A stretch of 64,000 nt of DNA from Gilliamella sp. Pra-s52. Its GTDB lineage: Bacteria > Pseudomonadota > Gammaproteobacteria > Enterobacterales > Orbaceae. Shown in pieces: positions 48,835 through 52,265 of this stretch; position 1 is the first letter of the stretch, and each line of letters starts with the position of its first letter. The notes under the pieces are model-generated. The model did no database searches, had not been told where the DNA came from, and saw only the letters and a list, made by a program, of their open reading frames with translations. The stretch lies in assembly GCF_009795805.1 (NCBI RefSeq), contig NZ_WTEY01000001.1, forward strand, positions 124,001 through 188,000, read 5' to 3'. A program made the translations under genes and the position numbers.

Positions 48835-49320
48835 GTGTCAACAGTTGCCCTAAACATCGTTTTATTTGAACCTGAAATTCCAGCTAACACAGGTAATATT
48901 ATTCGTCTTTGTGCGAATACTGGCTTTAATTTACATATTATTGAACCTATGGGCTTTTTTTGGGATGATAAAAAGTTAAGACGGGCAGGGCTAGATTATC
49001 AAGAATTTGTGGATGTAAAACGTTACAAAAATTTTGACCACTTTATGGAACAAAACCAAATTGACTTGCAAACACAACTTTATGCCTTAACCACCAAAGG
49101 GCAAAAATCACATAGCGAAGTCAATTATAAACACAATGATTTTTTAATATTTGGCCCAGAAACCCGGGGTTTACCAGCAAGCATACTTGATGTATTACCC
49201 CAAAACAAAAAAATACGCATTCCCATGTTAGCAACCAGTCGTAGTATGAATTTGTCAAATTCAGTAGCCGTTGTGGTATACGAATCATGGCGCCAATTAA
49301 ATTACTTAGGTGCAAAATAG
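48835..49320 (+). CDS. trmL: TrmL, tRNA (cytidine/uridine-2'-O)-methyltransferase
   Basis: SPOUT-class enzyme that methylates the wobble ribose of tRNA-Leu isoacceptors. 161 residues, GTG start. Trefoil-knot motifs [27 protein letters not shown] and [19 protein letters not shown] are conserved. Lies 18 bases after cpxA, so may be co-transcribed, although unrelated in role. Followed by a hairpin. Confidence 0.97.
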
Positions 49321-49872
49321 TGTCTATGCTTGAAGATTAGGCTGATTTTTGTAAAAAAACAGTAAATAAAAACTTCAATAAAATCAATGGCTTTTCTGAC
49401 CATTTTTTGGGGTGATAATTGCGTTGCTTTTTAATAAAAAAGCAACTTACAAAAAACACTTAAAGCGTGGATTATCAGGGAGTTTGCTTTAATTTCTTGA
49501 CTAGGACTTGGTTACTGTAGTTATTTTGTTAATCCAAAGATAAAATATCTAAAACCACTGCACCTAATCTATCCTATCCATTGAAATAAAAAGGGCATGA
49601 TTTCTGACAAAAACCAGTCAGAAAAGTAATTGATTTTATTTATTTTTTTGTTTTACATTTTTACCAAAAATAGCTATTAAAAGTTTCCTAAAAGGTTAAT
49701 TCTCTAAATAATACTCTTAGAATTAACAAAACTTTATAATTCTTTTAAAAAAAACTAGCCATTTAATTTTTAACAAGTTATGCTTTATGTCTATTATAAA
49801 AAAGCTCATAAAACGAGCATAAAAAACAAAAAACATAAATAAAACAATGAATTACTTGACAGGAAAATAAAA
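49321..49872. other. Long leader region before the phase-variable surface-protein gene
   Basis: About 550 bases without a gene. Contents: hairpin GTTGCTTTTT/AAAAAGCAAC at 49423-49446 (probable trmL terminator); stem TTTCTGAC/GTCAGAAA at 49601-49624; inverted repeat GTTAATTCT/AGAATTAAC at 49695-49727; a sigma70-like pair TTAACA (49770-49775) and TATTAT (49792-49797) with 16 bases between; and a ribosome-binding site AGGA at 49861-49864. Confidence 0.5.
49770..49797 (+). promoter_or_regulatory. Candidate promoter of the surface-protein gene
   Basis: TTAACA (49770-49775), 16-base spacer, TATTAT (49792-49797), each five of six matches to consensus. Predicted start near 49805, about 70 bases before ATG 49873. 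Prediction only. Confidence 0.35.
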
Positions 49873-49932
49873 ATGCACTACCATGGCTGGCATCTGGCAT
49901 CTGGCATCTGGCATGCCAAACCTATGCCCTAA
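49873..49932 (+). CDS. Out-of-frame leader reading from the phase-variable ATG
   Basis: ATG 49873 has a well-spaced ribosome-binding site (AGGA at 49861-49864, eight-base spacer). In the sequenced state it gives only 19 residues (MHYHGWHLASGIWHAKPMP) and stops at TAA 49930-49932. The repeat lies inside this leader; one extra unit would carry the frame on into the long downstream gene. Confidence 0.55.
   Translation: MHYHGWHLASGIWHAKPMP
49887..49914 (+). repeat. Four perfect tandem copies of a heptanucleotide (CTGGCAT)
   Basis: Unit CTGGCAT at 49887-49893, 49894-49900, 49901-49907 and 49908-49914, with a partial TGG copy before. A 7-base unit shifts the frame by one for each copy gained or lost. 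With four copies the ATG at 49873 and the downstream gene are in different frames; five or two copies would join them. Confidence 0.9.
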
Positions 49933-49979
49933 ATCTTATTGATTCGTACGGTGGCCAAAAACAGGCACCACAGTTATTT

Positions 49980-51476
49980 TTGTCATCGAGGTCATTTCGC
50001 GTAGCGAAATCGACGCCGTTATCGGCAACATTATCGCCGATATCTAAATTGTTATCTAAACCACCATTATTATCTAAATCTGCGTTGGTCTTTGCGTCAT
50101 TGTTGTTATTGCCGTATACGCAAGGAGCGCAAGCATTGTCGGCTCAGACTTCACAGGTTATACATGGCAGTGCGCCATATTTAACGTTTGATGGTGGCCT
50201 AACCAAGGCAACCAATGTTGACGAACTATTGTTTATCACATTGCCGGATGGCACAAAACTTACCCCATCAACCAACACTTCAAGTGGTGTAAATCCAATA
50301 AAGTTACCTAATATCAGGAATACTTTAGGTGATATCGGCATGGTGGTACCACCATCAAAAAATTCAATCAATTTAAATGATTTAATTATACCAAGCAATT
50401 GGGGGGATGATGATGGTGACGGACAGGGGATAAATGGTGTTACAGTAACGGGGAGTATATCGGTAACGTTTACCGATAAAGAGGGTAATGCCGTTAATCG
50501 CGGTGATGCATTAGATATATGTAATGCGCCTTATAAGGTAACATTAAGTAGTACAGAGGGAAGTTTAACGACAAAGTATGGTGTACCAAAGAGTAGTACT
50601 TTCAGCGAAGGAAAGGTGAATTATTATATCAATCCCAATTTACCACTTAAAGTGTGTCACGTGAGACCAAATCTAACTTATGGTACAGGTGATTACGCAG
50701 GTCCATTTAATATCTGGAGCCCAACTAAGGGGTTTTTAGTTCAGTCAGTGAGTTCATCATCTTATGACCGAAATTTCCCTACTACGGGGGCAGATGGATT
50801 GTATTTTGATTTACTTATTGGTGGTATAGATGCCAGTCTGTTGACGTGGTCTTCAGTTACTCATGGGGGAATAACTGCTACTGTGACAACTATGACACCC
50901 AGTGATAGATGGATTCCTAATATTGATAGGGGAAAAGTTGTGACACGGGTGACATTAAGTGGTCCTAGGGCAAGTAGTAGCCAAATAGGCTCAGATTCCC
51001 CAAGTCGACTTAGCAAACCAATTTTACCTCAGATATTTGAGTTAGTAGGTATAGATAGTAAAGGTAGGGTCGTCAAGTATGGATTTGAGTTAAAGCAGTG
51101 GTTCGTCAATCGTGGAACTCGATTAGCTGATGCTTCTAACCAATCCTCTTGGTGTAGTGGTTTAGGTTATCGGTTTCCACAGGTAAGGGATTTAACTAAT
51201 GCGGTTTGTTCTGGTAAGTGGTCAGGAAGCTGGTGTCAAGGTTCTGTTGGTGCTATACCATCGTCATCGGGTGATCATTACCAACGTCGAATTGGGGCTG
51301 GTTTTTTCACCGAGTGGGGAGATATGCTTCATTACGCCAATGCTGACTTTACCGATAGAAACTACTGGACGAGTGAGGCAGTCGGCAATCTTCAGTTTGG
51401 TGTCGACTCGGACGATGGTGACGTGCTTGGGGACGATTCAAACATTAGTCGATATGGTCTTTGTACTTCGCCTTAA
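49980..51476 (+). CDS. Secreted adhesin/invasin-like surface protein, probably phase-variable
   Basis: The frame is open from 49860 to 51476 but has no ATG before about residue 120; TTG 49980 is the first usable codon and lacks a ribosome-binding site. The true start is probably ATG 49873, now out of frame. After a long basic N-region comes a hydrophobic signal (SALVFASLLLLPYTQGAQA). The middle has Ig-like beta segments (GVTVTGSISVTFTDKEGNAV). The C-terminal ~100 residues (WCSGLGYRFPQVRDL, GAGFFTEWGDMLHY, RNYWTSEA, YGLCTSP) resemble the lectin-like tip of invasin/intimin-type proteins. Higher GC than its neighbours. Function not established; adhesion is inference. Confidence 0.75.
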   Translation: MSSRSFRVAKSTPLSATLSPISKLLSKPPLLSKSALVFASLLLLPYTQGAQALSAQTSQVIHGSAPYLTFDGGLTKATNVDELLFITLPDGTKLTPSTNTSSGVNPIKLPNIRNTLGDIGMVVPPSKNSINLNDLIIPSNWGDDDGDGQGINGVTVTGSISVTFTDKEGNAVNRGDALDICNAPYKVTLSSTEGSLTTKYGVPKSSTFSEGKVNYYINPNLPLKVCHVRPNLTYGTGDYAGPFNIWSPTKGFLVQSVSSSSYDRNFPTTGADGLYFDLLIGGIDASLLTWSSVTHGGITATVTTMTPSDRWIPNIDRGKVVTRVTLSGPRASSSQIGSDSPSRLSKPILPQIFELVGIDSKGRVVKYGFELKQWFVNRGTRLADASNQSSWCSGLGYRFPQVRDLTNAVCSGKWSGSWCQGSVGAIPSSSGDHYQRRIGAGFFTEWGDMLHYANADFTDRNYWTSEAVGNLQFGVDSDDGDVLGDDSNISRYGLCTSP

Positions 51477-51515
51477 CCTTTTAAGTTAGTTCTTAATCCT
51501 TAAGGAGGGGCTGTT

Positions 51516-51551
51516 ATGGTGCTAAGAGAGGATAAGATAGACAAGAATTAA
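51516..51551 (+). CDS. Tiny ORF with a strong ribosome-binding site, 11 codons
   Basis: ATG 51516 preceded by AAGGAGGGG (51502-51510) encodes MVLREDKIDKN and a TAA. Lies 39 bases after the surface-protein stop. It may be a leader-like peptide, a remnant of a repeated cassette, or chance. Confidence 0.25.
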   Translation: MVLREDKIDKN

Positions 51552-51647
51552 GCCACCGCACAAATTAGAGCTTTTTCTTAGAACGGTGTTGTTGCGGTTA
51601 AATGCAACCTATTATACCTTTTTATTACGTTACTAATAAAAAAGCGA

Positions 51648-51678
51648 GGTTTTTAACCTCGCTTTTTTCGATAGATAT
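51648..51678. terminator. Bidirectional terminator before efp
   Basis: 14-base perfect stem (51648-51661 with 51665-51678), three-base loop, A and T runs in the arms. Serves efp on the minus strand and the surface-protein gene on the plus strand. Confidence 0.88.
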
Positions 51679-51698
51679 TAACTTGCGCTGTGCGCTAT

Positions 51699-52265
51699 TT
51701 ATTTAACGCGTGATACGTATTCACCTGAACGCGTATCCACTTTAAGCACTTCACCGATTTGTACAAATAACGGCACACGCACAACGGCACCTGTTGATAA
51801 TGTCGCAGGTTTGCCGCCAGTTCCCGCTGTGTCGCCTTTTAAACCAGGATCGGTCTCGATCACTTCAAGCTCAACAAAATTGGGTGGTGTGACCGCAATC
51901 GGTTGGCCATTCCATAATGTTAAAATACATTCAGCTTGATCAACTAGCCATTTTGCATTGTCACCAACGGCTTTTGCGTCAGCCGAAAGTTGCTCAAATG
52001 TGTCGTTATTCATAAAGTGCCAAAATTCACCGTCGGTGTAAAGGTACGTTAAATTCATGTCAACCACGTCAGCAGCTTCAACTGATTCGCCCGATTTGAA
52101 TGTTTTGTCGACAGTTTTGCCCGAAAGTAATTTTTTAATTTTTACTCGGTTAATAGATTGTCCTTTGCCCGGTTTGTAAAATTCATTTTCAACAATAACG
52201 CATGGTTCACCATCTTGCATTATTTTAAGACCGGCTTTAAACTCATTTGTACTATAAGATGCCAT
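51699..52265 (-). CDS. efp: Elongation factor P
   Basis: Rescues ribosomes stalled at polyproline motifs. 188 residues, three beta-barrel domains. Lys34 in FYKPGKGQS is the site of beta-lysylation in E. coli-type EF-P. The divergent neighbour epmB encodes the lysine 2,3-aminomutase for that modification, which supports the lysylated (rather than rhamnosylated) type. Confidence 0.98.

Follow-up and report, generated by a model that had tools for sequence, protein, structure and literature searches.

A heptanucleotide repeat at the start of an adhesin-like gene of Gilliamella sp. and its probable role in the frame switching of a large paralogous family

In Escherichia coli K1, the phage-borne gene neuO carries AAGACTC heptamers in its 5' coding region, with arrays of 3 to 53 units; according to the accessible portion of the report, the unit number in 42 out of 64 genomes was not a multiple of three, which is about the two thirds expected at random (PMC13001214). 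As regards Haemophilus influenzae, the accessible portion of the survey describes heptanucleotide SSRs in the promoters of hmw1A and hmw2A, and an AACAACC repeat in the homologue of HI1369 (PMC2651432). In Mycoplasma gallisepticum, the GAA repeats of the vlhA genes precede the transcription start, and it is the promoter that they affect (12 GAA); in the first experiments, as the excerpted text relates them, one member was expressed at a time, and later work detected others too (PMC6258824).

The DNA analyzed in the present work (hereafter, the window) is a stretch of 64,000 nucleotides from Gilliamella sp. Pra-s52. Gilliamella are bee-gut bacteria; among the matches listed in a search of the open-access literature, no published tie of this genus to phase-variable genes was found. 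A sequence-only reading of the window had proposed that a heptanucleotide repeat in front of a secreted adhesin-like gene acts as an ON/OFF switch, caught in the OFF state. The features of the locus are the following:

49770..49797, strand +: P1, upstream promoter-like site TTAACA-16-TATTAT (10/12 matches)
49804..49818, strand.: small hairpin GCTC...GAGC in the presumed 5' UTR (stem search)
49856..49884, strand +: P2, sigma-70-like promoter straddling the start codon, TTGACA-17-TACCAT (10/12 matches)
49860..51476, strand +: gene frame, invasin/intimin-like adhesin candidate (open frame, relatives)
49861..49864, strand +: Shine-Dalgarno-like AGGA (sequence)
49873..49932, strand +: leader ATG and 19-codon out-of-frame reading up to the TAA, i.e., the OFF state (frame reading)
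49887..49914, strand +: heptanucleotide array CTGGCAT x4, or TGGCATC x3.9 in the register of the relatives (TRF, relatives)
50082..50117, strand +: putative signal-peptide hydrophobic core ALVFASLLLLPY (from the sequence, coordinates by hand)
50214..50645, strand +: N-terminal domain, Ig-like in the model, residues 79-222 (numbered from the TTG)
50640..51473, strand +: C-terminal head, predicted Ig-like plus C-type-lectin-like fold, residues 221-498

As had been claimed, positions 49887-49914 hold four perfect copies of CTGGCAT (TRF score 56); this is the only perfect heptamer array of at least three units in the window, and 20 shuffled windows yielded none. The ATG at 49873-49875, previously credited with a ribosome-binding site, has an AGGA 8 nt upstream, and its distance from the array is 11 bases rather than the 12 given before. 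The stop after 19 codons in the frame of this ATG (TAA, 49930-49932) was also recovered, together with the long downstream frame, open from 49860 to 51476 (about 500 codons), out of frame with ATG 49873 and with no initial ATG, the earliest start listed being TTG 49980. In line with the definition of a contingency locus, the repeat is perfect, its unit is not divisible by three, and it lies at the start of a coding frame. In the register of the relatives (TGGCATC; registers compared by hand), the window array counts 3.9 units and, despite its four CTGGCAT units, we place it, judging from the register, in the three-unit class. L043, a close relative that is likewise OFF, matches the window gene in spacing (by hand). 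One extra copy had been predicted to restore the frame; L003, a paralogue from the window genome whose array is one unit longer than that of the window gene, has its ATG in frame.

We consider it probable (at roughly 0.8) that the locus is a member of a genus-wide family of frame-switched, i.e., phase-variable, secreted adhesin-like genes. The comparisons support a translation start at ATG 49873 and passage through the heptamer array, with the count of 7-bp units setting the frame and reading entering, in the right one, the long signal peptide and the invasin/intimin-like head. The window gene represents the common OFF state of the family, that of the three-unit class. Units would be gained or lost by slipped-strand mispairing, rare steps from three to four units turning single members ON and the reverse step silencing them again; the result would be a cell line with a large repertoire of short-array genes, most of them silent and few or one expressed.

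The window genome (2.49 Mb, 65 contigs) harbors seven members of the family, which is present in 35 of the 60 genomes searched (window genome counted) and in two out of 26 genera; the relatives in named genomes belong to Gilliamella and to one other Orbaceae bacterium. Counting fragments, the matches per genome are 49 in G030, 48 in G023, 42 in G024, 32 in G027, 28 in G006, and 26 in G032; for these six genomes the member lists are nearly complete (minus fragments and a few weak matches), those of the others being partial. The sister genus (G035) gave eight matches, and the members fetched from it have no arrays. No relatives of the family were retrieved from viral_contigs, and a viral carrier was rejected.

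The fetched loci yielded 476 distinct open frames, 321 of which were retained (at least 250 codons, 5' end present): 313 with a stop codon and eight cut at the 3' end whose 5' region was otherwise absent. Frames that were shorter or cut at an edge were left out, and the loci of G011, G016, and G035 were examined apart; of these genomes, only one earlier member from G011 and one from G016 belong to the 321. Sampling is one genome per species, and the comparisons are between paralogues and between species; paralogues are not independent, and the members with at least three units correspond to 43 genome-by-unit groups.

Some observations concern the location and structure of the members. The trmL-efp interval of the window (49320-51699) may repeatedly host family members, with different ones in different species: the trmL-adjacent site in G033 hosts a three-unit OFF member with a different unit (L418), and the efp-adjacent member in G016 (L040) has a tetranucleotide array. 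On contig C1 of G027, 30 of the 32 family matches, counted by hand, are co-directional with replication (direction taken from a noisy GC skew) and the other two lie close to where the origin is presumed to be; among sampled ORFs, the co-directional ones number 190 of 301, one of the 20 sampled stretches having been left out. Moreover, G033 (among L417-L425) and G010 (L429-L442) harbor short members of about 355-400 codons, matching only from query residue ~220 on, some of which, e.g., L418, retain the family 5' leader and array; in the short members the 5' cassette is apparently joined to different bodies.

At least three perfect heptamers occur in the leader of 176 of the 321 members, compared with a mean of 0.04 in 50 Markov shuffles of the same leaders, which rules out chance or composition as the origin of the arrays. 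None of the 313 full-length members has a perfect heptamer array in its last 300 nt, and 400 kb of G027 contain no such array beyond one belonging to a family member. The arrays comprise 26 unit sequences, none with a stop in any register, partly because the units are A/C-rich; three-unit members were seen for 20 unit sequences. Thirteen members have two units and could include shortened or decayed arrays. Clearly decayed arrays are rare (one of 132 array-less leaders reaches 12/14 lag-7 matches, and a control stretch of the same genes gave one at 11), and relic arrays are therefore disfavoured.

Other repeats occupy leaders of the family. In a related clade, GCCA arrays of 13-29 units, in and out of frame, lie directly after the ATG (L288, L289, L293, L297, L302, and L303 in G006; L399 and L405 in G014; L412 in G030; L454, L460, L466, L469, and L476 in G016, the neighbourhood of L476 showing a 13-unit array); the GCCA tract is a putative second, longer contingency tract within the same family. 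In the pair L450/L453 (G011), one member has AAAACAC x4.4 after an in-frame ATG and its sibling has the octamer AAAAACAC x4.2 and no in-frame ATG. The leaders of L171 and L421 carry the 9-bp repeats ATTTCGACA x5.6 and AAATCACCT x6, in which a gain or loss of units would leave the frame unchanged.

In the following, ON means an in-frame ATG ahead of the array and nothing more. Among the 321 members, two-unit arrays are OFF in 12 cases and ON in one, three-unit arrays are OFF in 160 out of 161, and seven of the eight four-unit arrays are ON, the OFF one being the window gene; none has 5-10 units, and those with 11-15 units comprise two ON and five OFF. This dependence of frame on unit number is consistent with the proposed phase-variation switch, and the check suggested for it, i.e., other unit numbers in frame with intact genes, found such cases both between paralogues and between species. 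In the three-unit class, the leader ATG is in the identical wrong frame in 159/159 genes (two of the 161 have no leader ATG), and in 156 of these 159 it is preceded, 3-18 nt upstream, by AGG, GGA, or GAG. An in-frame ATG is found in 108 of the 132 members without a heptamer array, ten of the 132 carrying tetranucleotide arrays; in G003, for instance, L091 (no array) is in frame and L088 (three units) is out of frame.

The seven four-unit ON genes comprise six unit types in seven genomes, from which we infer that the three-to-four-unit step happened repeatedly. Three ON genes (L160, L098, and L368) have same-genome OFF siblings with exactly 7 bp less of array and 0, 3, and 5 mismatches, respectively, in 100 flanking bases. 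A close OFF sibling was sought and not found for the other four: the best one of L003 is in another genome (20 mismatches), L069 has a distant one only, and for L019 and L073 none was found. L323 is ON through a 1-nt difference and not a whole unit.

Short arrays (n=3-5) are ON in eight cases out of 169, one third being expected if slippage were free (p about 1e-19, without correction for relatedness). This proportion and the absence of arrays with 5-10 units imply that free slippage alone is insufficient to account for the distribution; three units are, moreover, few for hypermutability. The eight ON short-array members lie in eight genomes (P=0.013, computed after the pattern was seen); in-frame members without a heptamer array coexist with them. 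Tetranucleotide arrays (GCCA, AGCA) are ON in four of the 16 classed by hand, again one per genome (P=0.046, post hoc, with group sizes by hand and at least one further GCCA array, beside L476, outside the 16). One ON member is not a strict rule, since none of the 35 short arrays of G030 is ON; in G023 there are two ON members once long heptamer arrays are counted.

That no genome has more than one short-array member ON (the above P=0.013), and that tens of paralogues, often clustered, occur per genome, would also be expected if the three-unit genes were a silent archive donating by gene conversion to an expressed copy, with the array marking the cassette and slippage being rare. We regard this scenario as unlikely, because three ON genes are one unit off OFF siblings with nearly identical local flanks, and because the silent copies retain a start codon, an SD-like site, and promoter-like sites, none of which donor cassettes would need.

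Frame switching by unit number, our preferred reading, has to be considered together with the promoter-like sites of the leader. In each of the 169 short-array members, a -10-like hexamer stands 2-5 bases ahead of the array and is itself preceded, at a distance of 16-18 bases, by a TTGACA-like hexamer, so that the putative promoter straddles the start codon. This site has 9 matches of 12 in four members, 10 in 51, 11 in 37, and 12 in 77; a score of at least 10/12 is thus reached in 165 of the 169, compared with 3/963 and 14/963 at control positions, and only one 12/12 site with a spacer of 17 or 18 occurs in 400 kb, both strands, of G027. Two-unit arrays score at least 10 in 11 cases out of 13. 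A similar test (at least 5/6 plus 4/6) was passed by 168/172 array members, 31/108 in-frame array-less members, and 9/642 body ATGs. The last base of the -10, a codon third position, is T in 172/172 array members, which points to selection on DNA; it is T in 30 of 38 comparable array-less members among the matches listed (by hand).

RNA from a straddling promoter would start in the array, without the ATG, which counts against the frame-switch reading; for P2 the expected start is about 49891. The site might therefore be a real promoter, the leader ATG being unused and translation starting further down (e.g., at TTG 49980), and its high scores (at least 10/12 in 165/169, 12/12 in 77/169) and invariant T (172/172) speak for this possibility. 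We judge it very improbable: just seven of the 139 members with a recognised signal core have an SD-like start between array and signal peptide, the leader ATG and its SD-like site are themselves conserved, and individual subgroups also conserve a promoter-like site further upstream. Of the 161 three-unit-class genes, six offer another start in the gene frame that has a Shine-Dalgarno-like site and lies no further than 150 nt from the array; some in-frame ATG lies at the array junction or up to 150 nt downstream in 41/161, three with an SD-like site. With SD-like starts in only 6/161 and 7/139, a downstream start is rejected as a general rule for OFF genes.

A message that includes the leader ATG could instead be supplied from upstream. 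In the window, P1 ends 75 nt upstream of the ATG and its transcript, expected to begin near 49804, would include it, the number of promoter-like sites around P1 being below the shuffle mean. Subgroups of relatives keep a -10-like TATACT/TATAAT that precedes the ATG by about 95-100 nt, and upstream promoter scores of at least 10 occur in 22/167 members and in 9/167 shuffled sequences, a slight excess; such a site could supply the translatable message. Upstream hairpins are no stronger in array members than in shuffled sequences (6.4 vs 6.5), and other subgroups have different stems at a position similar to that of the window hairpin.

A tentative and rather unlikely extension of the frame-switch reading is that the straddling near-consensus sigma-70 promoter makes the three-unit heptamer switchable: its transcription bubble would open the array, and the promoter, giving no translatable message, would act as a local mutator next to a repertoire of tens of adhesin genes, OFF by default with roughly one ON in each genome. 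By themselves, tetranucleotide arrays with 13-29 units should be unstable, and the seventeen examined score 6-9, the background range, at the corresponding site; arrays of this kind without a promoter are what such a mutator would predict. The seven long heptamer arrays, scoring 10, 9, 10, 11, 9, 8, and 10, fit it less cleanly, four of them reaching at least 10.

The constant phase of the three-unit genes (159/159, with 20 unit sequences) might also arise if these alleles were expressed by programmed translational or transcriptional slippage on the repeat, their OFF state being apparent only; this is highly improbable, given that no slippery motif in common was noticed among the units and that in-frame four-unit members and in-frame array-less members exist. 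A decaying pseudogene with an incidental repeat, to which the out-of-frame start might point, has a negligible probability in view of the intact 500-codon frames, a median dN/dS of 0.47, and the 26 unit types that form perfect arrays at one place. That median was obtained for OFF genes over 893 pairs, and the coding parts are intact and mildly constrained. Constraint on the leader is weak (dN/dS about 0.65), and its codon-position test in OFF genes gave no third-position excess; for the leader, the evidence therefore consists of the open frame and the motif, and not of the substitution pattern.

The C-terminal half of the protein is predicted to fold like the head of invasin/intimin (Ig-like plus C-type-lectin-like), according to a VIA-align comparison re-aligning the top Foldseek chains, with 18-19% identity to 1cwv and 1f00 in the structural alignment. 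Searches by sequence of Pfam, NCBIfam, and the PDB gave nothing above threshold, and assignment to a known domain family in these collections was rejected; none of 32 members matched any Pfam family at E 0.01 (in one member Lcl_C appeared below threshold, at E 0.099), nor did four full-length natural in-frame proteins above the cut-off. The first modelled domain begins after about 80 residues, too short a stretch for an N-terminal outer-membrane beta-barrel; this hallmark of type Ve is absent from both the Pfam results and the model.

If the frame-switch reading is true, a bee gut symbiont would possess a large repertoire of phase-variable adhesins. The three-unit bias and the promoter across the start codon make switching by short repeats a testable question, and strain-specific colonization of the bee gut offers a direct read-out.

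Compared with invasin and intimin (1cwv, 1f00), the predicted C-terminal head fold is alike, whereas the N-terminal half differs and the beta-barrel domain is not recognised (no Pfam match). With vlhA the family shares a large paralogous set of surface proteins and a repeat number tied to expression (in Gilliamella, predicted); in contrast to vlhA as presented in the accessible part of that work, the Gilliamella repeat is located at the beginning of the coding region, and its predicted effect is on the frame (PMC6258824). As in H. influenzae, heptamer tracts occur at surface-protein genes, the HI1369-type tract lying inside the reading frame; however, in the accessible portion of that survey the tracts have 8-38 units at few loci, and a family of tens of paralogues with many different units is not described (PMC2651432). 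Like neuO, the Gilliamella leaders place heptanucleotide units within the 5' coding region, where their number determines the frame; they differ from it, as far as the excerpted report goes, in forming a family of many paralogues with three units, ON in 8/169 (PMC13001214). Frame switching by repeats is already known elsewhere; what is new here is the scale of the family, its ground state of three units, and the promoter-like site that spans the start codon.
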